IMG/VR virus record: IMGVR_UViG_3300008339_000377
Span: 1 to 27,715 of that record
Source: a virus
DNA length: 27,715 bases
Strand: one strand, 5' to 3'
Below the pieces are notes generated by a model. The model saw only the letters and a program-made list of their open reading frames with translations, was not told the DNA's origin and did no database searches. The translations under genes and the position numbers were made by a program. Shown here one piece after another: positions 96 to 21,980 of the stretch (position 1 is its first letter; each line of letters begins with the position of its first letter).

Positions 96-584
96 ATGGC
101 TGATTTATTAATGAGAATGCCAATACCTTACGAACCGAAGAGACAGAACAGGTTTATTTTGAGATTTCCTTCTACTTTGGGGATTAACGAGTGGTTTGTT
201 GAAACAGCATCAAGACCTAAATTAACGATAGCTTCTACGGAGATTCAATTCTTAAACACTTCTACATATGTTGCTGGCCGTTTTACTTGGGGTGAGATAA
301 GTGTTAAATTTAGAGACCCTATTGGTCCTTCAGCATCTCAAGCTTTAATGGAATGGGTTCGTTTATGTGCAGAATCTGTAACAGGTCGTATGGGTTATGC
401 TGCTGGTTATAAGAAAAATGTTGACTTGGAAATGTTAGACCCAACAGGAGTTGTTGTAGAGAAATGGATATTAGAAGGTGCTTGGTTAATGAATGTTGAC
501 TTTGGTTCATTGGCTTATAACAGTGACGCAATTGCTGACATCACGGCAACTTTGAGACCTGACCGTTGTATATTGGTATACTAA
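96..584 (+). CDS. 19: Tail tube protein, T4 gp19-like
   Basis: This 162-residue protein matches the T4-type tail tube subunit (gp19, 163 residues) in length and layout. Stacked hexamers of this protein form the inner tube through which DNA passes, surrounded by the sheath. Visible family features are an N-terminal segment leading into RFILRFPSTLGI, a central strand-rich part (TWGEISVKFRDP), a helix around MEWVRLC, and a C-terminal half with VDLEMLDPTG and WILEGAWLMNVDFG, the paired strands typical of tube proteins. The ATG at 96 is chosen because the ATG at 91 runs into a stop after a few codons. There is no Shine-Dalgarno sequence; the leader is A-rich. The chaperone and tape measure genes follow, the usual tail-gene order. 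The assignment is secure at family level. Confidence 0.9.
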   Translation: MADLLMRMPIPYEPKRQNRFILRFPSTLGINEWFVETASRPKLTIASTEIQFLNTSTYVAGRFTWGEISVKFRDPIGPSASQALMEWVRLCAESVTGRMGYAAGYKKNVDLEMLDPTGVVVEKWILEGAWLMNVDFGSLAYNSDAIADITATLRPDRCILVY

Positions 585-686: not shown

Positions 687-1445
687 ATGGAACAAAATGT
701 TTTTGAAGCGGGACAACAAAATTTTAATTTACCACACGATATCGTATCATTACCTAGTGGGGGTATTTTTTATAAGTCAAAGAAAAAATCTATCAAAGTT
801 GGGTATTTGACAGCATCTGATGAGAACTATTTAATTGGTTCATCTCAAAGTGGTAGAGAAAATATTATAATGACATTATTAAGAAATAAAGTTTATGAAC
901 ATGATTTAAGACCTGAAGAATTGGTTGAGGGTGATGTGGAAGCAATTCTTATTTATTTAAGAAACACTTCATTCGGACCTGAATATGGTATGAGATTAAT
1001 TGACCCTAAAACAAATAAAGTTTTTGAACATACTGAAATTTTAGATGAAATCACAATTAGACAACCAAAAGTTCAACCCGATTCTGATGGTTTATACACA
1101 ATGATATTACCACGTTCAGGTAACACCCTTAAATTAAGACCATTAACTTTCCACGATTCCTTAGAATTAGAAAGAATGGCGGACCAATATCCTGTAGGTA
1201 GAATCGCTCCAAAGATAACATGGAGATTAAATAAATTAATACATTCAGTTGACGGGAATGAAGATAGAAATTTTATTTCACAATTTGTTGAAACATTACC
1301 TATTGTTGATTCAAAAGAAATCAGAACGTTTATGAGAGAAAATCAACCTTCATTAGATTTATCTAGAAGAACAATCGCCCCGTCAGGAGAAGAGGTAATA
1401 TTTGATATTGCCTTTGGGGTGGAATTTTTTCGTCCTTTCTTCTGA
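687..1445 (+). CDS. Tail assembly chaperone / gp26-gp51-like baseplate protein
   Basis: This 252-residue protein resembles the T4 gp26/gp51 family. T4 gp51 (249 residues) helps assemble the baseplate hub and gp26 is a hub component. Supporting features are the N-terminal LPSGGIFYKS, the helical middle (LLRNKVYEHDL..., AILIYLRNTSFG), the domain around LRPLTFHDSLELERMA, and the C-terminal DIAFGVEFFRPFF motif, which resembles the strand ending in aromatic residues in that family. It lies between the tail tube and tape measure genes, the position of the lambda G-type tail chaperone. Its last codons overlap a second frame that continues to 1587, suggesting programmed frameshifting. The stop is TGA at 1443-1445. 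Family placement is likely; the exact T4 counterpart is not settled. Confidence 0.7.
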   Translation: MEQNVFEAGQQNFNLPHDIVSLPSGGIFYKSKKKSIKVGYLTASDENYLIGSSQSGRENIIMTLLRNKVYEHDLRPEELVEGDVEAILIYLRNTSFGPEYGMRLIDPKTNKVFEHTEILDEITIRQPKVQPDSDGLYTMILPRSGNTLKLRPLTFHDSLELERMADQYPVGRIAPKITWRLNKLIHSVDGNEDRNFISQFVETLPIVDSKEIRTFMRENQPSLDLSRRTIAPSGEEVIFDIAFGVEFFRPFF

Positions 1446-1627: not shown

Positions 1628-3457
1628 ATGGCGGAAGAAACAGAAAGTTTTATGGATGACTTCGGAAAAAAGATTAAAGAAGTTCTTGATTCCGTTGGTG
1701 TGGTATTTAAATCAAATATTGACCCAAGTAGAATTACTGCGGTCATGGAAGAACTTGATGTACAAGCAAGTAAGGTCATTGCAACTTTTGGTCAAGGTAG
1801 AGAAAATATTGTCGGTATTAAACAAGCAATGGCTGATGCCGTTGTGAGTGTTAAGGCGTTAGGAGGTAGTTTCCAAGACGTATTAGATACTCAAAATAAT
1901 ATTGCTAATACTTTAGGTAGAAACTTGGTATTAGCATCTGATTCATATAAAGATTTATACGCCGCAGCCGAAGCGTCGGACCAATCATCGTCAACTATTG
2001 TTGAATCATTTAAAAATGTTGGTATATCAGTTTACGACTCATCAAAACAAATTGAGGGGATTTTGAATACCGCTAGAGAAATAGGTGTTAGCGGTTCTTT
2101 AGTGACAGGGGAAGTTTTAAATAATATGGACTTATTAAATAAGTACACATTTCAAGGAGGAGTTGATGGATTAGCGAAAATGGCCGCACAAGCGGTTAAC
2201 TTAAGGATTAATGTTAATGCGATTGGTGCGACTTTAGATAAAGCATTTAATCCTGAATCCGCAATTGAAATGGCCGCAGCAATGCAAAGATTAGGAGCAA
2301 CACAATCTGATTTATTAGACCCACTTAGATTAATGGATTTAGCTCAGAATGACCCTGCTGAACTACAAAATCAAATTGCGGAAATGTCAAAACAATTTGT
2401 TGAATTGAATGAAAAGGGACAATTTGAAATTATGCCAGGAGCCAAAAGACAAATGAAGGAGATTGCTGACGCTATGGGTATGGATATATCTAACTTAACC
2501 AAAATGGCGATTGGTAGTGCGGAACTTGAAGATAAAATGTCTAAGATTAGTTTCCCTGATACGTTTACTGAAGAACAAAAAACTATGATTGCCAATATGG
2601 CCGAAATGGAGGGTGGTGAATATAAAATACAACTTGGTGGTGACAAATTAGGAATCGCTGAAGCGATAGAAAGATTAAAGTCAGGAGGTGATGATGCAAT
2701 GCAAGATTTAATGGATTCTGCAAAACCTAAGACTCTTGAAGAGTTAACAAAAGAACAATTGGGTTATACGGCAGCAATGAAAGCCTCATTAAGTACGCTT
2801 GAAGACAGAATTCCATATGCAATTGCGAGTATGAGAGGCGTTAGTCAAGGTCAAACCAAATTAATGAAAGGTACTGAAGCAGTGACTGGTGCGTTTGATA
2901 CCGATGCTCTAAGTGTTAAAACAATTAGAAATCAGTTTAACGACCTTTATGAAGGAGTAAGTGGCTCAATAAGTCAAAATGGGATTGACTTTGAAAATTT
3001 AAGCGATAGTATCAATAAATTTGGTGATTATTTTAATACATCATTTACTGAAAGTTTTAAAAATTTAGATGAAAAAGTTAATGAAGCGGTTGGTTACAAA
3101 ATAACAGAAATCCTAAAAAAAATGGATGAATCTTTAAATATTGGTACTAAATCTACAGAAACTAAAACTGAAACCCCTACGGCAACCCCAATTCAGACTG
3201 TTACTACCACACCACCAACGAGTACGAATAACAATTTGGCGGTAAATAATTTAAATACAACAACCACTGAAAACAAAACCAATACAAATGTTAGTGAAAA
3301 TAAAAACATTTCACAAATAACTTTAGACATAAATGTTAATTCAAGTAATGTTGATAAAGATAAGGTAATAGAAATAATTAGTAGAACTGAAGTTGTTCAA
3401 GCAATCAATTCTGAAATCAAAAAACTTAATACAACTAACGGTCTAACAACAACATAA
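1628..3457 (+). CDS. Tail tape measure protein, gp29-like
   Basis: This 609-residue protein is close in length to T4 gp29 (590 residues), which sets tail length inside the tube. Residues 1-500 read as mostly helical, Ala/Met/Glu/Lys/Leu-rich sequence without cysteine. Segments such as GGVDGLAKMAAQAVNLRINV and ESAIEMAAAMQRLGATQSDL (about 180-230) are typical of tape measure proteins of large contractile phages. A Thr/Asn/Pro-rich linker (about 515-570) precedes a short C-terminal domain (ISQITLDINVNSSNVDKDKV and after). It follows the tail tube and chaperone genes, the expected order. The ATG at 1628 has an A-rich leader and no Shine-Dalgarno. By the usual tape-measure relation its length suggests a tail of roughly 90-100 nm, which is an inference. 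The role is well supported by context and composition. Confidence 0.75.
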   Translation: MAEETESFMDDFGKKIKEVLDSVGVVFKSNIDPSRITAVMEELDVQASKVIATFGQGRENIVGIKQAMADAVVSVKALGGSFQDVLDTQNNIANTLGRNLVLASDSYKDLYAAAEASDQSSSTIVESFKNVGISVYDSSKQIEGILNTAREIGVSGSLVTGEVLNNMDLLNKYTFQGGVDGLAKMAAQAVNLRINVNAIGATLDKAFNPESAIEMAAAMQRLGATQSDLLDPLRLMDLAQNDPAELQNQIAEMSKQFVELNEKGQFEIMPGAKRQMKEIADAMGMDISNLTKMAIGSAELEDKMSKISFPDTFTEEQKTMIANMAEMEGGEYKIQLGGDKLGIAEAIERLKSGGDDAMQDLMDSAKPKTLEELTKEQLGYTAAMKASLSTLEDRIPYAIASMRGVSQGQTKLMKGTEAVTGAFDTDALSVKTIRNQFNDLYEGVSGSISQNGIDFENLSDSINKFGDYFNTSFTESFKNLDEKVNEAVGYKITEILKKMDESLNIGTKSTETKTETPTATPIQTVTTTPPTSTNNNLAVNNLNTTTTENKTNTNVSENKNISQITLDINVNSSNVDKDKVIEIISRTEVVQAINSEIKKLNTTNGLTTT

Positions 3458-3493: not shown

Positions 3494-6400
3494 ATGCCTG
3501 AAAGTCCATTATCATTCGCGTCAACATCTACGTTTAGAAATACTTTAATGGCTAAAAATTTAGCTCAATATACTGTTGTGGGGAATTACACACCACCAAC
3601 AGGTCCATTGAATTATGAAATTGTGTTGGGTGATAGTAATGTTATTGATTCACCAAACAATTTAAATCAAACATACCCTGACCAATTATATCCACTTAAT
3701 GAATATGGACCTGATGGGGGGTACAACTTAACTATTGATTTTAATGGACCACCATTACCTGTTGACTCAAATCAAGGACCGTATAATCCTAATCCTGACC
3801 AAAGTCAGTTAATAACATTAAATGGTTTATATATAACAGGACCGTATATTATAAATGATTATTCCCCTGAAAATGGATATAACTACGTTTATGGTGTTAC
3901 TGATACAATCAACCCAGGTCAGATACATTTACCATATGTAAATAGTTTTGTCGCATCAAGTTACTCACCGTATTCAATACTATCAAGTGATAACCCAACG
4001 GGAAGTGACGGTTCATTATCTCAAGATTCGTATATTGCTCAATTAGGAGCAGCACAACTACAAAATTTATTTGAAGATAGAATCAATTTAGAAATTTATC
4101 AAAGTACTGTAGGTGCTGTAAATTTAAATACGTTACAAGACCCTTTTGAAGCTGCATTGATAGCTACAGGTCAACAACCATTAATCTATAGAAATTGGAG
4201 GATTACGGTACCTGAAAACTCAATTGTTGCGGCCTTAGACTTTGCAACTAGATTAACAGGGTCTTATTGGCCCGTATCATTAATACCTGGTGACTATTAC
4301 GATGAGAATACTAGCAATGGTTTACAATCAAACCAAACTTCTAATGCGTTAAGTACGGTTAATCAATTAACGGGTGGATTATTAGGTCCGATACTGAATA
4401 TCAATAGAAACCCCTCACAAATATTTTTAGCTAACACAGGTAATGGACAAAGGTCAGCATTATTCGCTAACCTACATTATAATAGATATTCACCTAATTA
4501 CAATAATGAGTTTGGAGGGGCCTTGGGTGTTATTCAGGGATTAGTGAATGTGGTAAATAATGTTGTGAATCCTAATGGGACCATAACAAGTAGTTATTAC
4601 GTAGGTAGTAGTAATGCTGAACCTTCACAAATAACAAGTCCAGCTAACCAAATACCAATTAATTCATTTGGTCAACAAAATCCGTCACCTGTTTATGGTC
4701 CTTCTGAATTGGGTCAATTATATGAAGGTAATATTGATAATATTAAGTTTGGTTTAGCGGGTATATCATCTGAAAATGGTGGGGGTATTGATGGTCAATT
4801 TATATGGACTTCACCAAAATACAAAAGTAATGCTGGATTTAAAGCAACACCTGGTGGGGGTAGTGGGAGTAAAGATGATGACTTTAATCAAATTAGTTCT
4901 CAGTATCAAAGTAATGAATCAACTAATCTTGAATATAAAAAAGGTTCAATATTAGATAATACTCAAAAATTAATTGATTCTGCGGATAATGTTACGGGTA
5001 TCTCAAGATTAAAACACGTAGGTAATGCGATGAACCAAGTTTCAAAGGTATTCCACGATGGTTACAAGGAGATGACAAAAGGTTCTCAAGTGGTTTCATA
5101 TAAAGATAATACAACAGGTAACGAAGCGGGTATTGAATATTGTAGAGTTTTTACCAAAGACACACCTTATTACACTTTCGCTGACTTACAAAAAACTGAT
5201 GGTATAACTACTTCAGGTAGACGTTTTAGTTATTCTATTTTAGATAATACTTACAATTTGAATATTGCTCCACTTAAAAATCCTGGGTCAACCAATATTG
5301 TAAAAAATGAGAAGGGTGATTTTTATGCCAAGAAATATATGTTCTCAATTGAGAACTTGGCTTGGAGAACATCAAGTAGACCTGGTTTTACTTATGATGA
5401 ATTACCTGTTTGTGAAAAAGGCCCTAATGGTGGTAGAGTTATGTGGTTCCCTCCTTATGAATTAAAATTTAGTGATACTAGTCAGGCCGATTGGAACCCA
5501 ACAAATTTTATAGGTAGACCTGAACCAATATATACTTATAAAAATACAAGTAGGTCAGGACAGTTAAGTTGGAAAATAATTGTGGATAGCCCTTCAGTAA
5601 TGAATATTATTGTTGACCAACAATTAAAAGGTGCTAGTACCGAAAGAGTAAATTCAATTTTAGAATCATTTTTTGCGGGATGTGTAAAATTTGACATATA
5701 TGAATTGGCTAAAAAATATAACACAATACCTGTATCCGAATTACAACAAATACAAGAGGCGTTAAATAATCCAAGATTAACTGCTGAAGAATTAGCGGGA
5801 ATTAAAGCTTCTATACCTGCAGACAATACCGATGTTGTTGGTAACATGGCTAATAGTACTGGAGGTGGAGGTGGAGATAAGGCAAAAACTGAAGACACTT
5901 CAGTTCAGGAGTTTGAACAAAAATACTTGGATTTTGCATTTTATTTTGAAAATGATATGCCAGGTCCGCACAATTCAACTAGTAATACCACCACTGAAAA
6001 TTATCAATCACTTTATGATACATATGTAAGTCAAACGAATATTGATTCTTACCAATCAAAGGCTAATTCGGTATTTAAAACTGATAATGGTGAATCTAAA
6101 ACAACAGGATTTTTTGATACTGTTATAAAAAGTAATTTTAAAAATATTGCTGAAGGTGATTCTAATTTTATAAATGATTCTATAAAATTATTAGAAAAAG
6201 GTTATGGACCTATAAGTATTGAAATGGTTGGTTCGGCTTCTGCGGTGGCGTCTGAAAATTATAATAAGGCGTTATCTAATAGGAGGATTGATTCAATAAA
6301 GAAGTTTTTTAGTTCTAAAGGTCTTGAAAAATATATTACTGAAGGTAAGTTTAAAGTTACCTTAGAACAAGGTGCTGGTGAAAATATTGTAATACCTAAG

Positions 6401-8548
6401 ACATCGGTTGAAATTGGGTCAGGTACTACTGAAGTTACCACAACTGATTCTGGTGTTGGAAATGACGTGGATTGTACTAAGTTACAATTTCCTGATACTT
6501 CAGTTGCACAAAATAACTCAACAAATAGAAGTATCGCTAGAATTAATTCAACAAGTGCAATGGCATGTCGTAGAGTTAAAATTAAAAACATTAAGGTTAA
6601 TGGTTCAGCAACTAATGAAAAAATAGATGAACCTGTAGTTATTGATGAGAAAAAAGAAGACGATATTGTTATAACCCCAATTAAACCTACACCACAAAAA
6701 ACAATATCTACTGAACTTAAAAAAGGGTTAAGTAAAAAAATATTAAGAAGTTTACTATCTGAATGTGATTATTTTGAAATGATTAAGGAAAACGAGCCTA
6801 TGGTGTATAAATCATTCTCAGAGAAAATAAAACATTTCAATCCTGCGTTTCACTCAATGACTCCCGAAGGTTTAAACTCTCGTTTAACATTCTTAAATCA
6901 ATGTGTGAGACCTGGTGAAACAATTCCTGTGATAGGCCCTGACGGTAAACCAAAATATAATGATTCAGTTAATACTGCGTTTGGGGCTCCACCTGTATTG
7001 GTATTAAGAATAGGTGATTTTTACCATACTAAAATAATTCCCGATAACGTAAGTTTTAGTTATGAACCATTAATTTATGACATGAACCCTGAAGGTATTG
7101 GGGTTCAACCAATGATGGTTAATGTATCACTAAGTTTTAAAATGATTGGTGGTATGGGGTTAAAAGAACCTGTTGACCAATTACAAAATGCGTTATCATT
7201 TAATTACTACGCAAATACTGAAATATACGATGAAAGGGCGGTATTTACCGAAGACACATCGGCATTAGATAAAGAAGTGTTTGACGCCATTTTAGCAGCA
7301 CAACCAAATGGTAAAGCAAATAATAATGTGTCAAATCAATCAAATGGTGGTGAAACAATAGGTCAGATAAAGAAAACAGTACCAGTTACTACACCACAAT
7401 TTACTGGTGAAACGGGTGAAATATTTTACCAAAAAGTGATGGATAATTTATATGATACCAATAAGTCATATTTTGAAAACATAACGAATCAATTAGAAAA
7501 AATATTATTACAATATAATAATGGTGTTTTACAAATGGTTAACTCAAAAAGACAATATACTAAAGGTAATGTTAAAAATGAATCAGGAAATGCGGAGTGT
7601 GAAATATATGGAAAACCTGATTTAACCAATTCAAATGAGTTATTTGATTTAGTTAGGTTAGGTATTAATAATAATAGTAATCCGATTATACAAGAACTTT
7701 TTTTACAGGGATTTTCACCTAGTGTTGCTGAGTTTGTGATACTTAAACAAAATATGATTCAGTACATTGATACTTTGCAAGGTGATTTTGATAGTGGTTT
7801 AGCTACTATTAATCAAGATATTGTTGGACAAGAAAATAATTTAATAAGTTTAATTGCGCAATTAAATAGTGTTGCGGATAAGACTGATGGTAAAATAGTT
7901 GGGAATAAAGTCTTTATATACAACATTAGTGGGTCAACGGCTCAAGGGGCGGTTAGCTCAACTAGTGTAGGGGTTAGTAATACATATGATGAGTTTATAA
8001 AAGATTATAAAACTTTACCTACTTCACTTAATTCTTATATTAAATTATTGACCGATAATAAAGTGTTAACTAAAGACTATACTTCGGTTGGAGTTTTTAA
8101 ACCTGCAACAGATAAGATTGGTGAAACATCAATACCCTTAAGTTTCTTTATGGTAATGGCTAGAGTGTTTACTGATAAAAATAAATTACAAGATTTTAAA
8201 AATTTTGTAATTAGCGGTCCTTTAGTTAATTATAAAACACCTAAAGATTTAAGAAAATCATTTGATAAAGCTTGTGATGAATTGGCTAAAAATTATGAAA
8301 AAGAACTAAAAGCTGAAGAAAAGAATTTTGAGAAGTTTAAAAAGAGTGACGGTTATAAACCATATTTAACAGGTATTGATAAATTAATGTACCCTAAAGG
8401 TAAAACCAGAAAGTTTAATTTTACAACACAGAAAGATGAAGTTAAATTCCCTCAACAAGAAAAATATATAAAAGATATTTATGGGACAGTTCCTTATGGT
8501 GATAAGGCCAATGATAAAAATACGTTTGATGGTAAAATAAATTTATAA
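3494..8548 (+). CDS. Giant tail-tube initiator/baseplate protein with OmpA-like domain
   Basis: This 1684-residue protein appears to be a fusion of baseplate-centre elements. Residues 1-160 are Pro/Gly/Asn/Tyr-rich and low in complexity. Residues 178-275 (DSYIAQLGAAQLQNLFEDRI, then SYWPVSLIPGDYY) form a segment common in structural proteins of large Bacteroidota-type phages. Residues about 650-700 (PYELKFSDTSQ..., FIGRPEPIYTYKNTSRSGQL) and about 1164-1255 (PPVLVLRIGDFYHTKIIPDN, IGVQPMMVNVSLSFKMIGG) resemble tail-tube-like folds of initiator/cap proteins such as T4 gp48 and gp54. Between them, residues 813-1030 look like an OmpA C-terminal domain: LDFAFYFENDMPGP, EMVGSASAVASENYNKALSN, LSNRR at 927-931, and the closing ACRRVKIKNIKV at 1024-1035. 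The C-terminus is helical and Lys-rich. Its stop overlaps the next start (TAATG). Baseplate location is well supported; the split into gp48/gp54-like parts is inference. Confidence 0.65.
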   Translation: MPESPLSFASTSTFRNTLMAKNLAQYTVVGNYTPPTGPLNYEIVLGDSNVIDSPNNLNQTYPDQLYPLNEYGPDGGYNLTIDFNGPPLPVDSNQGPYNPNPDQSQLITLNGLYITGPYIINDYSPENGYNYVYGVTDTINPGQIHLPYVNSFVASSYSPYSILSSDNPTGSDGSLSQDSYIAQLGAAQLQNLFEDRINLEIYQSTVGAVNLNTLQDPFEAALIATGQQPLIYRNWRITVPENSIVAALDFATRLTGSYWPVSLIPGDYYDENTSNGLQSNQTSNALSTVNQLTGGLLGPILNINRNPSQIFLANTGNGQRSALFANLHYNRYSPNYNNEFGGALGVIQGLVNVVNNVVNPNGTITSSYYVGSSNAEPSQITSPANQIPINSFGQQNPSPVYGPSELGQLYEGNIDNIKFGLAGISSENGGGIDGQFIWTSPKYKSNAGFKATPGGGSGSKDDDFNQISSQYQSNESTNLEYKKGSILDNTQKLIDSADNVTGISRLKHVGNAMNQVSKVFHDGYKEMTKGSQVVSYKDNTTGNEAGIEYCRVFTKDTPYYTFADLQKTDGITTSGRRFSYSILDNTYNLNIAPLKNPGSTNIVKNEKGDFYAKKYMFSIENLAWRTSSRPGFTYDELPVCEKGPNGGRVMWFPPYELKFSDTSQADWNPTNFIGRPEPIYTYKNTSRSGQLSWKIIVDSPSVMNIIVDQQLKGASTERVNSILESFFAGCVKFDIYELAKKYNTIPVSELQQIQEALNNPRLTAEELAGIKASIPADNTDVVGNMANSTGGGGGDKAKTEDTSVQEFEQKYLDFAFYFENDMPGPHNSTSNTTTENYQSLYDTYVSQTNIDSYQSKANSVFKTDNGESKTTGFFDTVIKSNFKNIAEGDSNFINDSIKLLEKGYGPISIEMVGSASAVASENYNKALSNRRIDSIKKFFSSKGLEKYITEGKFKVTLEQGAGENIVIPKTSVEIGSGTTEVTTTDSGVGNDVDCTKLQFPDTSVAQNNSTNRSIARINSTSAMACRRVKIKNIKVNGSATNEKIDEPVVIDEKKEDDIVITPIKPTPQKTISTELKKGLSKKILRSLLSECDYFEMIKENEPMVYKSFSEKIKHFNPAFHSMTPEGLNSRLTFLNQCVRPGETIPVIGPDGKPKYNDSVNTAFGAPPVLVLRIGDFYHTKIIPDNVSFSYEPLIYDMNPEGIGVQPMMVNVSLSFKMIGGMGLKEPVDQLQNALSFNYYANTEIYDERAVFTEDTSALDKEVFDAILAAQPNGKANNNVSNQSNGGETIGQIKKTVPVTTPQFTGETGEIFYQKVMDNLYDTNKSYFENITNQLEKILLQYNNGVLQMVNSKRQYTKGNVKNESGNAECEIYGKPDLTNSNELFDLVRLGINNNSNPIIQELFLQGFSPSVAEFVILKQNMIQYIDTLQGDFDSGLATINQDIVGQENNLISLIAQLNSVADKTDGKIVGNKVFIYNISGSTAQGAVSSTSVGVSNTYDEFIKDYKTLPTSLNSYIKLLTDNKVLTKDYTSVGVFKPATDKIGETSIPLSFFMVMARVFTDKNKLQDFKNFVISGPLVNYKTPKDLRKSFDKACDELAKNYEKELKAEEKNFEKFKKSDGYKPYLTGIDKLMYPKGKTRKFNFTTQKDEVKFPQQEKYIKDIYGTVPYGDKANDKNTFDGKINL

Positions 8549-8871
8549 TGGGTAGACAATATTATAATAGATATAATAATTTTATTTTAAATGGGGAACA
8601 AACTGTTGTTCCTTATATCACTCTACCGAGTAAGAGTACTGATAAAAGATATGTATATAAAGTTGCTCAAACAAGATTAGATAAATTATCTCAGCAATAT
8701 TACGGAGCGCCTTATTTTGGTTGGTTAATTTTAGTGGCAAATCCATTGTATGGAGGACAAGAATGGAGTATTCCTGATGGTTCTATATTGACAATTCCAT
8801 TTCCTTTAGTAGCTTCATTACAAGATTATAAAAATACATTAGACAACCACTTCTTCTATTATGGTAGATAA
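8548..8871 (+). CDS. 53: Baseplate wedge protein with LysM-like fold, gp53-like
   Basis: This 107-residue protein carries one clear domain at about residues 39-88. VAQTRLDKLSQQYYGAPYFG is followed by WLILVANPLYGG, then IPDGSILTIPFP. This is the LysM-like arrangement found in the T4 gp53 family (196 residues in T4) and in small LysM proteins encoded next to hub genes of contractile tails. In these systems the domain joins hub and wedges; direct sugar binding is not implied. The start overlaps the stop of the upstream gene (TAATG) and its end overlaps the hub gene by 11 bases, so the three genes are probably translationally coupled and made in matched amounts. Family assignment is good; the direct equivalence to gp53 is probable. 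Confidence 0.75.
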   Translation: MGRQYYNRYNNFILNGEQTVVPYITLPSKSTDKRYVYKVAQTRLDKLSQQYYGAPYFGWLILVANPLYGGQEWSIPDGSILTIPFPLVASLQDYKNTLDNHFFYYGR

Positions 8872-11800
8872 AATAGAAAACATTTTAGTTGAATTTGATT
8901 ACAACAACATTATTGTCGTTGACCCTAATAAAGTGGTTGACTTAGATGGTAATGTCAAAGAAAGATTTGTAAAACAGGAAGATTTAGTGATGTACGCTAA
9001 TTTAGAGTGTAAAGTATTACCAAGAACTAAGTTAGCGGTAGGTTCAGCAACTGATGATGCTATACAAACTGTATCAATCGCATCAATCAATTTTTTGAAT
9101 CCTGGTAATAAAACATTTATGGATAACGCCTATACCGATGAGATAACAGGTAAAGATACTATTCAAGGTAAAGGTGTTAATCAGGTTACTCAAAAACAAA
9201 TACAAAATCCTAAAAAAAGTGATGATTGGTATCTTAGACAAACATTATCTTCAGGGGGTAAAGACGGTGCAACTGACAATGGATTATTAGGGATAACTAA
9301 TATTTCAATCAATCAAAACCTATCTTTTATGCCAACCATTGATATCCAACTTGAGGACGTTAAAGGGAGGGCATTATTTGAAGGTGGTGATAATTCCCCA
9401 TACGCCGCATTTTTTAATTTACCATACCCTTTATTTAATTTAACTATTAAAGGTTTTTATGGGAAGGCGATAAAGTTGGCGTTAATGTTACAAACATTCA
9501 CCACTAGATACGATTCAAATGACGGTAATTTTAAAGTAAGTTTAAAATTTTATACTTACAAATATACTATTTTAAGTGAGATTACTATGGGTCACCTTAT
9601 TGCAACACCCCATATGTACAAATCAAGGTTAAAAGTTCAAACACAACAAGGAGGACCATCACAATTTTCTAAAATAGATAATCAAATAGTTGAAAAGGGT
9701 TATCAAAAAATTAAAGAAATGTATAATGAATATAAATCAAAAGGTTTAATACCTAATGATTTTCCTGAATTAACCATAGTTCAATTAAGAAATAATATTG
9801 AAAACTTTGTTAAAAATATTTTAGACTCGTTTACAAAACAAAATTTAGACCCAATTACTAATATTGATGATTATCAGGGAAAATTAAATGATTTTGAAAA
9901 AAAGGTTTTTCTATTTGTATCTGAAGGTAAGGGTTCTTGGTTTGACCAAAATATGGATAAAGTTAATTTCCTTGTCCTAAACAACGGTGATAAAATATAT
10001 ACGTTCAAAAAAGAGTTAGATAATAATAATGGTCAAGGTAAAATTAATGCTAAATCTGACCTTGATAAATTAATTACTGAATATAAAACAAAACTTTTAG
10101 AAAATAAGACCGTTGGTAAAGATGGTTCTTATACGATTAATGGTAAAACTAAAAAAATATCTATTCCTTTTAATATTAATAAAGAAACGTTTGGAGTTAC
10201 TGTAACACCTAACGATATTAAATGGACCGAAACTTATAGACAAGTAAAAAAAGTTAAAACAGAACCTACCGACGATGAATTAACTAAATTTAAAGACAGT
10301 TATAAATTTATAACTACTGAATGGTATAGATTTGAAGGTGTTAGTTCTTTTATGGACTTGACTGGTGTTATGGGTAAACAATTAAAAGTTTTTAGAGAGG
10401 AAATTGAAACTGAATTAACAATTGCGTTATCCGATTTATTACAAAGTAAAGATAATGGAATAGGGTTTGTACCTAATATTAGAAATGTTTTAGCGGTTAT
10501 ATTTGCCAATGGTGAGGCTTTTTTACGTTTAATGGATGAAGTTCACTATAAGGCTTGGCAAGTAAGAGAGGATAAATACAGAAAAGAAGCAATATTTGAT
10601 AAAGAAGTGTCAAGTGCTAGTCCTGATAATTTGGATTCGGGAACTGACGAAACTATTCCGATATATCCTTGGCCTCAATATATTGTATCAACTCCAGGTG
10701 AGAATGGTCAAGAAAAATTTGAAATACAATATCCTGGTGATTCTAAATTTGTTAGTAAAACAAAAGGGTATCTTTATGATGTTTGGCCTGAAGTAGAATT
10801 TGTTGAAGAATTTATTAGAGGTTATGTGGAAAGAACCACACCTCCTGCGGACCCAACCGCTGGTAATGATGAGACAACCGAAACTCAAAGAGTTTCATTT
10901 AATGCAATTGAATTCCCAACAACCGATGAAATCTTTTCAAATAAGGAGGAGGTTAAATTTATTTATGAAATATATGAAAGATTATTGGTGTATGATTACT
11001 ATACTAGATTAAGTCGTGTATATAATACCAATGAAGTTGATTCTATGGTCCAAAGCATTGCGGAAGCTGAGAGTGAAAACATACTTAAAAGTTTATCTAA
11101 TACAAATACGTTCTTAATTAAAACTCTAAAGGATTATAGTATTAACTCCGCTAATTTTTTATTAATATTAAGACATATCTCAAATGGAGGTACAGGACTT
11201 AATTGGCAAAATTTTATTAGAGGTATTTTTAATACGGTGTATATTAAGAATTTTGTAGATAATAATAGTTTTGATATACTTAATACTCAAGATTTTATTT
11301 CATCACCAATACCACTAACATCATTAAATAGTGAAAATAATTTAATTAAATATTTAACGGGGTCAACAACCTCAAATAAAGTTGATTTTACTGACTTATA
11401 CCCTTTTAGTAATTACAATTGGATTTTTAATAACTTGGCTAATGGAACCACCATATCAAGTATTGAATCCGCATTTAATACAACAAAAATATTAAATTAT
11501 GATGTTAGTAATAAAATCATTTCAAATTTTACACAAACTGATACTAAAGACCAAAAAAGACCAATTACTAATTTTGTGTGGAAAGAGAATGTTTTACCAT
11601 ATAATCCTGATATAAATCTAACATTAAAATCTTTTTATCAATCAAGAACGTATAAAAAACAGTTTTTAACTGAAGGTAATTTAAATTATTTAAATTATAG
11701 TGGTAATGTAACACCTAACCAAAGTGTTTCAATATTGAATACACCTTATTTTGTGAATGCCGTCCAAGAAGGGGTTGATAAATTTAGAAATTTTGATGAA

Positions 11801-14800
11801 TATCCATACAAGGTTCCTGCATACTTATTTTTAAATAGTTTACCTTTAGGTACGTTAAGAGAAAAATATAAAACTTACGAATCTAATTCACAAACTGATT
11901 TAGACTATATTTTTGCCACATTAAAAAAATTCGGTGCTATACATCGTTTACCATACGCTTGGATTCTAAAGTTAGGTTCGGTATGGCATAGATATAAAAC
12001 TTATGTTGAAACTAATGTTGATATACTAACACCTTCTTGGTCAGGATTTAATTATGTTAATAATTTTGACCCTGTAACTAATAACCCGACTAAAGATTAT
12101 GCTCTAACAATCAATGGTGGTAATTTTGATATTATATTAGAAAAAAATACAACAATTGGGGTTGATACCTCATCATTAATAAACGTTGGGTTTTATCCAA
12201 AAATGGTAAACGACTTTAACGTTTTTTATCAGGGATTTGAATTACTTTCGGGGTACACATCTGTTGATGTGCAAAATGCAATAACTTCAGGTTTAACATT
12301 AACATATGTATCTGAAGCGTTAATCGCTAAGTCACAAAATACTATAGGTAGTACCACGGCATCAACAAGGGATATAACTATAATACCTTGGAGTGTTTAT
12401 GTAAAAACATTTGATAATAATAGTTTTTATTTAATGCCTTCAGAAGGTTCATTAATTAACCAAACTATTGAAGAATGTTTTACATCTGAATCACAAAAAA
12501 TTGAAGTCACTGGTAATACCTCAATTTATAATGGTTCAGTTAGGTCTTTTTGGGCAGCACCTAACTATGGATATTTTGATGTTAATAAAATAGTAAAACC
12601 AACACCATTACAATATCTTAAACAAGTATTTTCAGGACAATCCGACCAAGAAAATTTCTCACTAAATTCTAGCTCAACAGGGTATACTGATATAAGTGAG
12701 ATGTTTACAGTATTTGAAAAAAATATTTTGGATAAGTTTGAACAAGAGTTTTTAAATTATTCTAAATCAGTATATGACACATTAAATGGTGATTATTTAA
12801 ATAATTTCCAGTCAATGATGAGAGAAATTGCTAAAGTACCAACACAAACAGGCAGTACTAATTACGATTTAGTTTTAAATATACAGGAAAAACAAAAAAC
12901 CAATATTAATAGTTTAATCAAAAACTTTTTAGAATTTGATAAATATATTAAATACGGTAATCCAAGTGGGTATGATAAAAAACTATTTTACACATTTTCT
13001 CAATTAGATGTTGTTGACCCATATGGTTGGTCTAATTACACAACACTAACACCAAATGCGTTACCTTATAATGGTGGGGGTATTACATTATCACAATCTA
13101 AAACAAATAATCCTGATGCTTGGAAAGCTTTAGAAACATACATAGGGTTCTCAACACTAAATAAATTAACGTATAGTAGTAATGGGTCTTATATTACAGA
13201 TTTCTTTATTGATTGTAATGTAGCATTTACTGAAGATAATGTGGTTACTTTTGCACCAATAATTAAACTCTATGCCGCTCAAAAATCTAAAGATAATACA
13301 TTAACATATGGTAAATTTATTACAGATATGACATTGTATTTAAATAATATTGATAGTTTCCAAGATAAAGTGATTAATAATTTAATGACAATCTTAAATA
13401 AACAATTACCTAATGTTAATAATAGTCCTGAGGCATTAGTCTCTTCTGACTTACAAGGACCTCAAAGTAAAGTTGAGTTATGGGAATCATTTAAAGCTAT
13501 AAATGATAAATGGATTTCGGGTAACGACTTTAAAGTTAAAACGTTATTTGAGGATATATTATTACTTGATAGGGCTAGTAGAAATATTGGTGATAAAATA
13601 TTAGTTGATGTTTATAAATTAAAAAATAGATTACAAAATATAATGGATTCACCTAAAGTGAGTATGTTAGTTTTTGTACAAACCATATTACAAGAGAATA
13701 ATTTTGTTGTTCATAATTTACCATCATATGTGAATTTTTATAATGTTCAAGATGTTAGTAAAAATCCTAAACCAAAACCTGAAGGAACATTAGAGTTTGC
13801 TAATACTTTATTTGGGACATTTTTAAATGTTGATTATAGAAATTCGGGGCCTAAAATGGTTTGTTATTATGCAGGTAAACCTAGTGAACAGTTAGATTTA
13901 AAAAATAATGTTGATTACCGATATAGAAACGACGCCTTTGATTTAAGAAGGTCAAGTGATAACCCATTAAATGAAAATTTAGTTGGTAAAAATGACTGGG
14001 ATAAATCAAACAAAGTTGTTGGATTTAATGTTGACATTGGTCCCCAAAATCAATCCATATTTTATGGGTTTATGGTTGACCAACAAAATTCTCAGTCTAC
14101 CGCTGAAGCCTTAGAAGTTATTAATCAAATGGCTAATCAAGCGGGAAATAGAGGAGGAAGTACACAGAGTGTGTCCCTATATAATTTGTATAAAAATAGA
14201 AGTTATACTTGTACTATTAGTATGATGGGTAATGCTCTGATACAGCCAACAATGTATTTCAACTTAAGACACGTACCAATGTTTAGTGGGCCCTATATGA
14301 TTCAAACTGTTGGTCATACAATTTCGCCAGGGTCGTTTGAAACTATTATCACAGGTATCAGACAACCAACGGCTTCTTTACCTAAGATTGAAAATTATAT
14401 CCAAACTTTAAAAAATAATTTATTACAAAATATTATTGAAAATAATAAAAAAGATAAAGAGGCTAAAGATAAACAAAATAAAGACGCAAGTGGTACCACG
14501 CAATCACAACAGGCTAAAATACAAGCAATTACTGGTGGCGACAAATCATTAACTCAACCACAAACTTGTACTCCGTCATCACCTTATAACACTTATTATA
14601 ATATAACACCAACTGTTTATGATGAAACATTTAGTTCTGTTAAAAGTGAGTTATCTAATGTGATTGTGGTAAGTAATGTTGATGGGTCTAAATTAAAATA
14701 CGTAATATTTGCGGCGTTATATGTTGAATCAGCTAACGGTAATCTCAAGTTTACTGCGTATGAAAATAATTTTGCGGGAGTAACGTTAACGTCAAAATGG

Positions 14801-15124
14801 GGTAGTGTTGAAACATATTTTAATAATAATAAACAATTTTTTTGTCAGACATCAGAAGGAGATAAAACAACTTTACCTTATGCTGTCTTTGATGATTTGT
14901 TTAATCATTTAAAGTTTTTAGTGGGTAGATGGAAAGATAGGATGACCTCTGATGTTGAAGTTAGTGCCCAATCAATTGCAAAATTTTTAATACTAAATAA
15001 TGTTACAATAAATGGTCCTAACACTAAAGATATAAGTGTCTATAATTCATACGATAGTACTAGATTAAAAAATCTTGAAACCAAAGTTCAAAAAGCTATT
15101 GATATTTATAACGCAACAAATTAA
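8861..15124 (+). CDS. Giant baseplate hub protein with C-terminal peptidoglycan hydrolase-like domain
   Basis: This 2087-residue protein is read as the hub at the tail tip. An N-terminal region (about 148-258) contains NLSFMPTIDIQLEDVKGRAL and FNLPYPLFNLTIKGFYGKAI, then strands consistent with a tube-like hub fold. Residues 260-1750 are long and unassigned, rich in Asn, Thr and aromatics. Residues 1781-1840 (CTISMMGNALIQPTMYFNLR, SGPYMIQTVGHTISPGSFET) match the C-terminal pattern of gp27/gpD-type hub proteins. A Lys/Gln-rich linker then leads to residues about 1900-2087, where LYVESANG with Glu1956, NNFAGV, a tryptophan and PYAVFDD resemble lysozyme-like glucosaminidases. The active site is therefore proposed as Glu1956. 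In T4 the equivalent lysozyme is on the gp5 spike; here it is fused to the hub. Start ATG 8861 overlaps the preceding gene. Hub role is likely; catalysis is inferred. Confidence 0.65.
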   Translation: MVDKIENILVEFDYNNIIVVDPNKVVDLDGNVKERFVKQEDLVMYANLECKVLPRTKLAVGSATDDAIQTVSIASINFLNPGNKTFMDNAYTDEITGKDTIQGKGVNQVTQKQIQNPKKSDDWYLRQTLSSGGKDGATDNGLLGITNISINQNLSFMPTIDIQLEDVKGRALFEGGDNSPYAAFFNLPYPLFNLTIKGFYGKAIKLALMLQTFTTRYDSNDGNFKVSLKFYTYKYTILSEITMGHLIATPHMYKSRLKVQTQQGGPSQFSKIDNQIVEKGYQKIKEMYNEYKSKGLIPNDFPELTIVQLRNNIENFVKNILDSFTKQNLDPITNIDDYQGKLNDFEKKVFLFVSEGKGSWFDQNMDKVNFLVLNNGDKIYTFKKELDNNNGQGKINAKSDLDKLITEYKTKLLENKTVGKDGSYTINGKTKKISIPFNINKETFGVTVTPNDIKWTETYRQVKKVKTEPTDDELTKFKDSYKFITTEWYRFEGVSSFMDLTGVMGKQLKVFREEIETELTIALSDLLQSKDNGIGFVPNIRNVLAVIFANGEAFLRLMDEVHYKAWQVREDKYRKEAIFDKEVSSASPDNLDSGTDETIPIYPWPQYIVSTPGENGQEKFEIQYPGDSKFVSKTKGYLYDVWPEVEFVEEFIRGYVERTTPPADPTAGNDETTETQRVSFNAIEFPTTDEIFSNKEEVKFIYEIYERLLVYDYYTRLSRVYNTNEVDSMVQSIAEAESENILKSLSNTNTFLIKTLKDYSINSANFLLILRHISNGGTGLNWQNFIRGIFNTVYIKNFVDNNSFDILNTQDFISSPIPLTSLNSENNLIKYLTGSTTSNKVDFTDLYPFSNYNWIFNNLANGTTISSIESAFNTTKILNYDVSNKIISNFTQTDTKDQKRPITNFVWKENVLPYNPDINLTLKSFYQSRTYKKQFLTEGNLNYLNYSGNVTPNQSVSILNTPYFVNAVQEGVDKFRNFDEYPYKVPAYLFLNSLPLGTLREKYKTYESNSQTDLDYIFATLKKFGAIHRLPYAWILKLGSVWHRYKTYVETNVDILTPSWSGFNYVNNFDPVTNNPTKDYALTINGGNFDIILEKNTTIGVDTSSLINVGFYPKMVNDFNVFYQGFELLSGYTSVDVQNAITSGLTLTYVSEALIAKSQNTIGSTTASTRDITIIPWSVYVKTFDNNSFYLMPSEGSLINQTIEECFTSESQKIEVTGNTSIYNGSVRSFWAAPNYGYFDVNKIVKPTPLQYLKQVFSGQSDQENFSLNSSSTGYTDISEMFTVFEKNILDKFEQEFLNYSKSVYDTLNGDYLNNFQSMMREIAKVPTQTGSTNYDLVLNIQEKQKTNINSLIKNFLEFDKYIKYGNPSGYDKKLFYTFSQLDVVDPYGWSNYTTLTPNALPYNGGGITLSQSKTNNPDAWKALETYIGFSTLNKLTYSSNGSYITDFFIDCNVAFTEDNVVTFAPIIKLYAAQKSKDNTLTYGKFITDMTLYLNNIDSFQDKVINNLMTILNKQLPNVNNSPEALVSSDLQGPQSKVELWESFKAINDKWISGNDFKVKTLFEDILLLDRASRNIGDKILVDVYKLKNRLQNIMDSPKVSMLVFVQTILQENNFVVHNLPSYVNFYNVQDVSKNPKPKPEGTLEFANTLFGTFLNVDYRNSGPKMVCYYAGKPSEQLDLKNNVDYRYRNDAFDLRRSSDNPLNENLVGKNDWDKSNKVVGFNVDIGPQNQSIFYGFMVDQQNSQSTAEALEVINQMANQAGNRGGSTQSVSLYNLYKNRSYTCTISMMGNALIQPTMYFNLRHVPMFSGPYMIQTVGHTISPGSFETIITGIRQPTASLPKIENYIQTLKNNLLQNIIENNKKDKEAKDKQNKDASGTTQSQQAKIQAITGGDKSLTQPQTCTPSSPYNTYYNITPTVYDETFSSVKSELSNVIVVSNVDGSKLKYVIFAALYVESANGNLKFTAYENNFAGVTLTSKWGSVETYFNNNKQFFCQTSEGDKTTLPYAVFDDLFNHLKFLVGRWKDRMTSDVEVSAQSIAKFLILNNVTINGPNTKDISVYNSYDSTRLKNLETKVQKAIDIYNATN

Positions 15125-15156: not shown

Positions 15157-15381
15157 ATGAACACGAAATTAATATTAGATAATTACTTAGGTAAGAATAC
15201 TAAGACAACGGAAAAAGATATGGGTGACGGTACTAAACAAGTATGTGATTTAGATACTGGTGATTGTTACACTATTAGAATGAAAGATGGATTAATTGAG
15301 AGAGTTGATAACACTCTTAATAAGAACAAAAAAATTCAAGTAGAAACTAAGAATGGAGTTAAACAATTATTAAATGGATAA
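15157..15381 (+). CDS. Small protein of unknown function
   Basis: This 74-residue protein is not recognised. It is hydrophilic and Lys/Asp/Asn/Thr-rich, with no membrane segment or signal peptide. A central CDLDTGDC motif (two cysteines six residues apart around acidic residues) lies within alternating short strands (KQVCDLDTGDCYTIRMKDGL), suggesting a small beta-hairpin protein. It follows its own TATTTAT element, so it is probably expressed late, and its end overlaps the next gene by 8 bases, suggesting coupled translation. A minor virion or assembly role is possible but is only inferred from position. Confidence 0.6.
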   Translation: MNTKLILDNYLGKNTKTTEKDMGDGTKQVCDLDTGDCYTIRMKDGLIERVDNTLNKNKKIQVETKNGVKQLLNG

Positions 15382-16081
15382 GGACATGAAGATAGATGTT
15401 AAAATTTTAAATGAGTTAAAAAGGTATAACTCAATCAATAATTACATTATGGAGCAAGATGCCGAATTACCTCCACCACCCGCTGGTGATGTACCACCAC
15501 CTGATGCAGGAATGGCACCCCCAGCACCTGATGCAGGAATGGCGCCTCCAGCACCTGATGCAGGAATGGCTCCTCCATCACCTGAAGCTGGTGCGGCACC
15601 TACAGGTCCTGTTGATGTTGCAAATGACCCTGACGTTGAAAAACTTGATGATAAAAAAGAAGAAAGTGATAAAGAAGAGTTAGAAATAACTGACTTAGTT
15701 AAATCACAAAAAAATGTTGAACAAAAACAAGAAGAATATTTTGAACAATTATTTGACCATTTAGGAAACCTTGAAAATAAGTTGGGTGAAATGGATAGTA
15801 TTGTTAACAAACTTAATGATTTAGAAGCTAAGATTGAAAAATATAGAACAAAATCACCTGAAGAAAAATTAGAACTAAGGTCTTTAGATTCGGGACCATT
15901 TAATCAAAAACTAACAGATTATTTTGAAGACAAAGAAGAAGACTTTGAAAAATTAGGGAGAGATGAATATATTTTAACAAAAGATGAAGTTGAAGAATTT
16001 TCACCTTCCGATATTAAACGTTCTTTCAGAAATTTTGAGGAGGACGAAACTGACTTGAATAACTTTAAACGACTACGATAA
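15374..16081 (+). CDS. Acidic Pro/Ala-rich repeat and coiled-coil protein, unknown function
   Basis: This 235-residue protein has three parts. A short N-terminal helix (DVKILNELKRYNSINNYIME) comes first. A Pro/Ala/Gly-rich segment follows with three tandem PDAGMAPPA units (residues 43-69) and a degenerate fourth. The rest is a highly acidic, helical, coiled-coil-like tail (about 90-160) with Lys/Glu-rich sequence to the end. IME at residues 25-27 fits the loose (I/L)-x-E rule of T4 prohead protease sites, so the N-terminus might be a cleaved capsid-targeting peptide; this is speculation. The start may be ATG 15374, overlapping the previous gene, or ATG 15386. It is the last gene before the terminator that separates structural and replication genes. 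It could be a virion, scaffold-type or assembly protein. Confidence 0.65.
   Translation: MDKDMKIDVKILNELKRYNSINNYIMEQDAELPPPPAGDVPPPDAGMAPPAPDAGMAPPAPDAGMAPPSPEAGAAPTGPVDVANDPDVEKLDDKKEESDKEELEITDLVKSQKNVEQKQEEYFEQLFDHLGNLENKLGEMDSIVNKLNDLEAKIEKYRTKSPEEKLELRSLDSGPFNQKLTDYFEDKEEDFEKLGRDEYILTKDEVEEFSPSDIKRSFRNFEEDETDLNNFKRLR
15500..15580 (+). repeat. Three tandem 27-bp coding repeats
   Basis: Three adjacent units at 15500-15526, 15527-15553 and 15554-15580 begin CCTGATGCAGGAATGGC and encode PDAGMAPPA, PDAGMAPPA and PDAGMAPPS. Differences are mostly at third codon positions. A diverged fourth unit (PEAGAAP) follows to about 15601. The array is in frame, so copy number can change without breaking the gene. 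Confidence 0.9.
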
Positions 16082-16086
16082 AAAAA

Positions 16087-16110
16087 AAACGGGTTTCGGC
16101 CCGTTTATTT
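16087..16110 (+). terminator. Rho-independent terminator before gp32
   Basis: AAACGGG (16087-16093) pairs with CCCGTTT (16100-16106) around a 6-base loop and is followed by ATTTT. A run of nine A residues precedes it, immediately after the stop of the upstream gene. It separates the late structural operon from the replication genes. Confidence 0.8.
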
Positions 16111-16155
16111 TGACTGACATATTTGACTGACAATAATTTTAATATTATACTTTAG
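16109..16155 (+). promoter_or_regulatory. Tandem TTTGACTGACA repeat with Bacteroidota-like promoter elements
   Basis: TTTGACTGACA occurs at 16109-16119 and again at 16122-16132. Each copy starts with TTTG, like the -33 element of Bacteroidota promoters. TTTG at 16109 lies 21 bases before TAATTTTA (16134-16141), and TTTG at 16122 lies 22 bases before TACTTTAG (16148-16155). Each downstream box matches TAnnTTTG at 7 of 8 positions or better. Two overlapping promoters, or one promoter plus an operator, would suit tight control of gp32. AT-rich DNA makes chance matches possible for the downstream boxes; the 11-bp repeat is less likely to be chance. Confidence 0.5.
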
Positions 16156-16176
16156 TAAACTTTTAATTTAATATAT

Positions 16177-17034
16177 ATGGCGACAAACAGTTTAGACGCA
16201 GTACTTGCACAGTACGAGAAATCACAACAGTCGGGGAATTACACCCCAAAAATGTCACAAGAAGACAGAATGAAGAAATACTTCGCAGCTATCTTGGACA
16301 AGAATGAGAAACAAGGTCAGAAAAGACTAAGAATTCTCCCAACTACAGATGGTTCTTCACCATTTAAAGAAGCGTGGTTCCACGAAATCCAAGTGGACGG
16401 ACAATACGTAAAGTTGTACGACCCTGAAAAGAACGACAACGAGCGTTCACCTCTTTCCGAAGTTTATGAAGAGTTAACATCAACAGGAAAAGAAAGTGAT
16501 AAAAAACTTGCGGCTGATTACAGAGCTCGTAAATTCTACATTGTTAAAGTTATTGACCGAGATAACGAACAAGACGGAATTAAATTCTGGCGTTTCAAAC
16601 ACAATTACAAGAATGAAGGTGTGTTGGACAAAATTATCCCAATTTGGAGAGCAAAAGGAGATATCACCGACCCTGATAAAGGAAGAGATATTATCCTTGA
16701 GTTGACAAAGGCTAAAACCCCTAAAGGAAAAGAGTATACTGTTATCCAAACGGTTATGTATGATGACCCAACACCTGTACATGAAGACAAGGAAACTGCT
16801 GATACTTGGGTTAATGATGAATTAACTTGGAGAGATGTGTATTCTAAAAAACCTGTTGAGTATTTGGAAGCAATTGCTAACGGACAAACACCAAAATGGG
16901 ATACGGTATTAGGTAAGTATACTTACGGTGATTCATCCGTATCTGAAGAATCATTTGGTGGAGGTTCTGCAAAGGTAGAAACTTATGTTGACCCACAAGC
17001 GGATGATGACGCTGACGAGGAATTACCATTCTAA
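16177..17034 (+). CDS. 32: Single-stranded DNA-binding protein, T4 gp32-like
   Basis: This 285-residue protein corresponds to T4 gp32 (301 residues), which coats single-stranded DNA during replication, recombination and repair. A basic N-terminal part (to about 50, KNEKQGQKRLRILP) leads into the OB-fold core with FKEAWFHEIQVDG, RARKFYIVKVIDRDNEQDG and IKFWRFKHN. Conserved late-core motifs are IIPIWRAKGD and DIILELTKAK. The tail is Gly-rich and acidic and ends DDDADEELPF. Two features are unusual. There is no cysteine at all, so the zinc site of T4 gp32 (His64, Cys77, Cys87, Cys90) is absent. The final residues also mimic the acidic tip of bacterial SSB proteins. Six of eight Phe codons are TTC, against 3 of 19 in the tape measure gene, consistent with high expression. 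The gene stands alone between two terminators. Confidence 0.88.
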   Translation: MATNSLDAVLAQYEKSQQSGNYTPKMSQEDRMKKYFAAILDKNEKQGQKRLRILPTTDGSSPFKEAWFHEIQVDGQYVKLYDPEKNDNERSPLSEVYEELTSTGKESDKKLAADYRARKFYIVKVIDRDNEQDGIKFWRFKHNYKNEGVLDKIIPIWRAKGDITDPDKGRDIILELTKAKTPKGKEYTVIQTVMYDDPTPVHEDKETADTWVNDELTWRDVYSKKPVEYLEAIANGQTPKWDTVLGKYTYGDSSVSEESFGGGSAKVETYVDPQADDDADEELPF

Positions 17035-17048
17035 TTGATTATTTTTAC

Positions 17049-17078
17049 GATAAACCCCTAAATGGGGTTTATCTTTTT
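17049..17078 (+). terminator. Strong terminator between gp32 and uvsX
   Basis: GATAAACCCC (17049-17058) is the exact complement of GGGGTTTATC (17064-17073), a 10-bp stem with a 5-base loop, followed by five T residues. With the terminator upstream, it makes gp32 an isolated, separately controlled unit. Confidence 0.88.
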
Positions 17079-17101
17079 ATTAAATATTAATACATTTATT
17101 T

Positions 17102-18103: not shown

Positions 18104-18128
18104 TTGTAGAACCATTTAATGGTAAAAA

Positions 18129-19127: not shown

Positions 19128-19131
19128 AATT

Positions 19132-19584: not shown

Positions 19585-19592
19585 TATTTATG
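19585..19592 (+). promoter_or_regulatory. TATTTATG motif before gp41 helicase gene
   Basis: TATTTATG at 19585-19592 overlaps the end of the orphan gene region (stop at 19582-19584) and lies 20 bases before the helicase start. It resembles the structural-gene motif, but this gene is not a structural gene and no A-run follows at the usual distance. It may be a chance match in AT-rich sequence. Confidence 0.25.
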
Positions 19593-19612
19593 ATATATTA
19601 AGGTAAAATTAT

Positions 19613-21013: not shown

Positions 21014-21014
21014 T

Positions 21015-21962: not shown

Positions 21963-21980
21963 TAAAAGATTTATTTAATT

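Follow-up and report, generated by a model that had tools for sequence, protein, structure and literature searches.

An OmpA-like domain within a baseplate protein of uncultured T4-like phages

Gene organization of the locus

The window analysed here is the whole 27,715-base viral DNA of the IMG/VR record IMGVR_UViG_3300008339_000377, in which tail and baseplate genes flank a block of replication and nucleotide genes (all coordinates given below are on the plus strand). The tail and baseplate set consists of a gp19-type tube protein, a T4_baseplate protein, a wedge subunit, gp25 and gp6; for the gp6 gene, the nearest cultured phage is Flavobacterium phage immuto, with 26.5% identity. The gp19-type tail tube protein is encoded at 96..584 (PHROG tail tube protein, E=8.6e-28; Pfam Phage_T4_gp19, E=9.3e-6) and a baseplate hub-type protein at 687..1445 (Pfam T4_baseplate, E=3e-8; PHROG baseplate hub, E=5.7e-11). 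A 609-aa protein (1628..3457) gave no confident family match with Pfam and PHROG, and we place it in the tape-measure position from its location. It is followed by the gene of interest (3494..8548), an ORF of 1684 aa encoding a baseplate protein with an OmpA-like domain in the T4 gp48/gp54 slot, for which 49 distinct full-length sequences were aligned and 207 relatives with both conserved halves were found. The next gene (8548..8871) codes for a baseplate wedge subunit (PHROG, E=9e-6), which we take to be the gp53 equivalent from its position and our own reading of it.

A 2087-aa protein (8861..15124) is probably the hub protein: the same gene order is found in a distant relative, locus L160, and the role is assigned from position. 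The C-terminus of this protein (window 14462-15121) gave a very weak Pfam Glucosaminidase match (E=0.26) and, going by this match, might act as the wall-degrading enzyme of the tail. Between the hub-type gene and gp25 (window 15374-24392) lie replication and nucleotide genes, including those for gp32 and a RecA/UvsX-type protein and, judged by eye, for an exonuclease, a helicase and a ribonucleotide reductase.

The core order is thus tube, T4_baseplate-like protein, long helical protein, OmpA-domain protein, gp53-like protein and large hub-type protein. It recurs in L160, with a few extra ORFs between the tube and T4_baseplate-like genes. L160 (2-17969) is a contig filed as Prochlorococcus sp. 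AG-409-L21, a single-cell assembly, and probably represents an infecting or co-sorted phage; its baseplate cassette is the same, and the OmpA-like domain in it is more compact. The view of the initial annotation that the domain sits in a baseplate protein is borne out by the adjoining gp19, gp53 and hub genes.

Identification of the OmpA-like domain

The domain covers approximately residues 803-1036 (5900..6601) and was recognized by Pfam OmpA, by profile matches to PDB chains, by a confident AlphaFold2 model and by Foldseek. The motifs on which the initial annotation had based its proposal are all present, within one residue of where it had placed them: FAFYFENDMPGP from residue 814, MVGSASAVASENYNKALSN from 911, LSNRR at 927-931, KKFFSSKGL, and ACRRVKIKNI at 1024-1033. 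The latter (6563..6592) is the closing strand, counterpart of the OmpA closing NRRVE strand as judged from an OprF alignment that runs through the closing rrve segment. A low-complexity insertion had also been noticed ahead of the last strand, and we find there residues 973-985 with pLDDT <50, in a region that is gap-rich among the relatives.

Pfam OmpA was the sole Pfam match of the whole ORF (E=0.007, residues 895-953), and single-sequence scores of 17.1-20.6 bits remained under the curated cut-off of 27.2 bits. Across the family the signal was stronger. Pfam OmpA matched 42 of the 49 close-family domains at E<=0.1 (best 1.3e-6) and 36 of 63 diverse members at E<=0.01 (best 6.2e-10), and one member, L234, reached 33.5 bits, above the curated cut-off. 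Since a single-sequence search of the domain against PDB gave weak matches, a few of them OmpA, we used profiles. The close-family profile detected almost exclusively OmpA-family chains (best E=1e-5). With a profile of the 63 diverse members, some fifty PDB chains were matched, nearly all from the OmpA family, with E=2.4e-10 for OprF and about 1e-8 for Pal, and the OprF alignment extended to the closing RRVE strand. Moreover, of 60 bacterial genomes, 57 contained matches to the 63-member profile, and the Pfam OmpA model picks many of the same sites. The family membership proposed at the outset was therefore recovered by profile search in this region.

Structure prediction pointed in the same direction. 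In an AlphaFold2 model of residues 540-1262, the OmpA region had pLDDT values mostly of 75-95, whereas the remainder of the model was poor; the domain modelled alone reached a pLDDT of 88.4 and a pTM of 0.87. In Foldseek searches of PDB with both models, the C-terminal domain of PorE (6top) came first, followed mostly by OmpA-family structures, and nearly all of the best 50 fold matches of the domain model were OmpA-family or OmpA-like. Individual scores were modest (best E 3.6e-3 for the longer model and 0.13 for the domain alone; TM-score to the target mostly 0.4-0.5), perhaps owing to the two long insertions of the domain. The OmpA fold predicted by the initial annotation is thus supported by a confident model and by its structural neighbours, though not by high individual scores. 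In BFVD, the best match was A0A6J5L6C4 from an uncultured Caudovirales phage (E=4.8e-4, TMq 0.53, 24% identity over 212 columns).

We conclude that the domain is almost certainly homologous to the OmpA/Pal/MotB C-terminal domain. A chance likeness of motifs on an unrelated alpha/beta fold, for which the sub-threshold single-sequence Pfam scores and the modest Foldseek E-values could be cited, is highly improbable and in practice refuted by the Pfam matches across the wide family (with L234 above the cut-off), the PDB profile match through the closing strand, the matches in bacterial genomes and the OmpA-like character of nearly all best fold matches.

Flanking segments of the carrier protein

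Two variable linkers enclose the domain. The first, Gly/Thr-rich (residues 775-802, 5816..5899), has the highest column entropy in the whole protein (2.3-2.6 bits) and pLDDT values of about 26-36; the second, Pro/Lys/Glu-rich (residues 1037-1072, 6602..6709), has column entropies up to 2.46 bits and a low pLDDT. On the outer side of each linker lies a conserved segment: residues 540-735 (5111..5698), with a beta hairpin at 655-670/679-698 in the AlphaFold2 model (pLDDT 42-68 there), and residues 1073-1262 (6710..7279), with strands at 1180-1191/1206-1218.

We propose that these two segments are the first and second halves of a tube-like fold. In the model they form two beta hairpins, of low confidence as is everything outside the OmpA-like domain. 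Foldseek searches with the 540-1262 model returned NF5 baseplate/tail tube, diffocin, AFP and PVC baseplate chains with low to middling probability. In hhalign comparisons of both halves with T4 gp48, gp54, two immuto proteins and the gp19-type protein of the window, all probabilities were <1%, and no sequence link was found between the two halves themselves. As to genomic position, comparison with the T4 order places the gene beside tape-measure, tube, hub and wedge genes, as in a gp48/gp54-type slot. The reading of the flanks as tube-initiator folds in the initial annotation thus agrees with the gene order and, weakly, with the structure, but not with any sequence similarity to T4 gp48 or gp54. 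From synteny and weak fold matches we infer that the carrier is a 'tube-end protein'; the name is to be read as such a deduction, given the lack of a sequence match to T4 gp48/gp54 and the weakness of the tube-fold matches.

Distribution and evolution of the domain

A first scan of viral contigs, in which 80 loci down to about 40% identity were kept, and two further scans with divergent members, which gave many more loci, indicate a family of hundreds of matching stretches in public viral metagenomes. Both conserved segments are present in 207 metagenomic relatives (141 distinct inserts), of which 200 have the OmpA signature, 6 have a degenerate one and 1 has none. The exception, L222, carries instead a 99-residue low-complexity linker (residues 698-796 of frame 4227-7307), and its 102-kb contig showed no OmpA domain elsewhere. 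The domain is therefore not indispensable throughout the family. Among seven long phage records, six have the domain, solely in the baseplate protein and once per record; the seventh is that of L222.

Pairwise distances of the domain and of the flanks are correlated (Spearman 0.75; none of 500 permutations as high), indicating that the two were inherited together. By this comparison of sequences, the domain is co-inherited with its carrier across a large family of uncultured phages and evolves much faster than the flanks (median identity 0.19 for the domain versus 0.55 for the flanks). When the 1684-aa protein and two relatives were searched against 50,697 phage records, a collection from which near relatives may be left out, no match was obtained. 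Likewise, profiles of every part detected nothing in the two related phages immuto and Mel-JY01, and the domain of a divergent relative had no match in plasmids and phages.

Two contigs deserve a comment as assemblies. In the near-identical contig L004 (3546-8436), the 1684-aa ORF is broken into two overlapping frames, which is a frameshift or a sequencing error. In L159 (1-1743), a contig of a Holophagaceae MAG, a phage baseplate fragment continues in frame into a fragment that by eye is MurB-like and adjoins cell-division genes (FtsZ-like); this is likely a chimeric assembly.

Residues of the diaminopimelate pocket

In Acinetobacter baumannii OmpA, diaminopimelate is contacted by Asp271 and Arg286 (PMC5974059). 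In TagL, the contacts are Asp486, Asn494, Leu497 and Arg501, and mutating Asn494, Leu497 or Arg501 abolishes wall binding (PMC8253398). Mapped by spacing, these sites correspond to Ser916, Asn924, Leu927 and Arg931 of the phage protein. Clustering at 70% identity gave 83 representatives for comparison, all but one with the domain. The Arg shared by OmpA and TagL (Arg931 codon, 6284..6286) is Arg in 81 representatives, Gln in one and a gap in one; Leu927 (6272..6274, TagL Leu497) is kept in 77/83 and Asn924 (6263..6265, TagL Asn494) in 69/83. At the site of the diaminopimelate-binding Asp (Ser916 codon, 6239..6241), Ser is found in 72 representatives, Gly in 5, Thr in 4 and Asn in 1, and Asp in none of the 82 that carry the domain. 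Ser is invariant at this site in a clade of 49 members.

The initial annotation had asked whether the Asp and Arg that bind diaminopimelate are preserved: the Arg is (81/82 representatives), but the Asp position holds Ser916 in this protein and lacks an Asp throughout the family. Its suggestion that the domain may contact the cell wall cannot be supported by homology, as the Asp is never present, although Asn924 and Leu927 are kept as well. The domain belongs to the OmpA family by homology, yet it is not to be classed as a peptidoglycan-binding OmpA domain, because the defining Asp was tested for and is absent.

Near the end of the domain we also noted a conserved pair of Cys residues, both invariant in the close family: Cys994 (6473..6475), Cys in 59/82 representatives, and Cys1025 (6566..6568), within the closing strand, Cys in 56/82. 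They possibly form a disulfide or a metal site. A CxxC motif occurs in the inserted region of 18/82 representatives.

To place the Ser, we considered a sample of cellular OmpA domains drawn from a single phylum, that of the Holophagaceae MAG to which L159 belongs. A regular-expression count also caught unrelated reading frames, and we retained only entries in which the motif G[HYF][TAC] could be made out. At the Asp site, Asp predominates in these domains, with Cys in several of them and Ser in a few. The Ser-type motifs, GFASSDG, GFASADG, GFASAEG and GYTSSVG, are among the best matches of the phage profile; they fall into GFASxxG (L285, L287 and L288) and G[YH]TSSVG (L286 and L269). Like the phage domain, the Ser-type cellular domains have Ser at the Asp site and equal spacing to N..L[SA]..R; unlike the phage baseplate insert, they belong to bacterial proteins. 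The phage domain thus resembles in its motifs an existing Ser-type branch, and the change from Asp to Ser need not have arisen in the phage. Loss of the Asp alone was rejected as proof of a structural reuse of the fold, since Ser or Cys is found at this site in some OmpA domains of cellular origin. We know of no function for Ser-type OmpA domains, and the uniform loss of the Asp in the phage family draws attention to this little-studied branch in bacteria.

Possible functions

We find an OmpA-homologous domain inserted between two variable linkers of a conserved baseplate protein in the gp48/gp54 slot. In T4, gp48 and gp54 lie between hub and tube, in six copies each, and on tail contraction the hub, located at the tip of the tube, is driven into the periplasm (PMC3004832). 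By analogy, about six copies of the domain might encircle the tail tube at its distal end and enter the periplasm with it; if the T4 comparison holds, six OmpA-type domains could reach the wall on flexible tethers. Each would be a tethered ligand-binding module whose Ser-type (Asp-less) pocket makes contact with the stem peptide of peptidoglycan or with some other ligand in the periplasm, and this contact, made while the tube tip crosses the wall, would steady the tip.

We tentatively favour such a tethered module, with a changed pocket and probable contact with the wall or another periplasmic ligand, over a structural reuse of the fold that is nearly level with it. Our preference comes from a pocket that appears frozen on a fast-changing domain between variable linkers: Arg, Leu, Ser and Asn are constrained despite a domain identity of 0.19, and the matching Asn, Leu and Arg are needed for wall binding in TagL (PMC8253398). 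The correlated distances of domain and flanks, the location suggested by gene order and by the T4 hub and tube, and the existence of cellular domains with Ser at the Asp site (L285-L288, L269) are all consistent with it. However, the Asp that contacts diaminopimelate is missing from every representative, which argues against the classical ligand geometry, the best-kept pocket residues could serve folding, L222 does without the domain, and the place on the tube is deduced, with a model of low confidence outside the domain.

The structural alternative, only slightly less credible, is that the OmpA fold has lost contact with the cell wall and serves to dock the tube-end ring onto proteins of the wedge or sheath. 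Such a use has a precedent in T4 gp53, which has a LysM-type fold in structural use. The absence of the diaminopimelate-binding Asp from all representatives, the strict gene order beside the gp53-like wedge gene, including in a distant marine relative, and the presence of one domain per phage record, always in the baseplate protein in the records searched, would fit this possibility. On the other hand, the domain has diverged much more rapidly than the flanks (0.19 versus 0.55), unlike a tight interface with conserved partners, and it is set on variable linkers with its pocket residues nevertheless kept.

A change of ligand seems improbable, though less so than the absence of homology dismissed above. 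The pocket would then hold, for example, a periplasmic protein of the host, or another protein of the phage by its C-terminus or an acidic side chain, with the Arg acting as a carboxylate clamp. Retention of the Arg in 81/82 representatives with the Asp replaced by Ser speaks for this reading, as does the invariant Ser of the close family, which suggests a changed rather than a decayed pocket, but we found no candidate partner.

The boldest version of the favoured module is that a large T4-like environmental lineage fastens its tail-tube tip to the host wall during injection, with a pocket that recognises the wall without the usual aspartate. We consider it doubtful as a whole. If true, this fastening would be an aid to penetration not described for phage tails in the literature that we searched.

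Implications and comparison with known systems

Wall-anchoring OmpA domains fix bacterial secretion systems and flagellar motors, and here a relative of them is built into a phage injection machine. The phages that carry it are a widespread group of uncultured T4-like water phages, and the family is abundant in public viral metagenomes. Should it bind the wall, the domain would reveal how these phages keep the tube tip in place during penetration; otherwise it would add to the examples of a fold for wall binding that has become part of a baseplate. In a search of open-access papers, we met with no account of a phage baseplate protein that contains an OmpA-like domain. OmpA is mentioned in connection with Leptospira prophages, but there for a lipoprotein that is absent, which has no bearing on the present domain.

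Phage proteins with an OmpA-like domain and a weak fold match are R9ZWT8 of Cellulophaga phage phi17:2 and a protein of virus sp. ctML55. However, both are short (327-338 aa) and have no insertion in such a baseplate protein. PHROG 7897 also matches the OmpA-like domain by sequence. A0A6J5L6C4 is uncharacterised in UniProt and is probably a member of the OmpA-domain baseplate family.

As for T4 gp48 and gp54, the carrier occupies a like slot, in that it follows the tape-measure position and has tube, hub and wedge genes as neighbours; however, it has 1684 aa, compared with 320-364 aa for the T4 proteins, and shares no detectable sequence similarity with them. PorE of type IX secretion, the top Foldseek match, keeps the Asp in a SHAD motif, displayed as 'saDrkg' in the close-family profile match, and is a cell-envelope protein, unlike the phage baseplate carrier. 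Finally, homology at the profile level to the OmpA/Pal/MotB C-terminal domain (PF00691; OprF, Pal, TagL and PorE) runs across the phage domain, which in its predicted structure shares the first strand, the long helix after the GxxS loop and the closing RRV strand, and which keeps Asn, Leu and Arg of the diaminopimelate pocket. It differs in the replacement of the Asp, mostly by Ser, in the long insertions that follow the first strand and precede the last one, and in its location inside a baseplate protein instead of an envelope protein.
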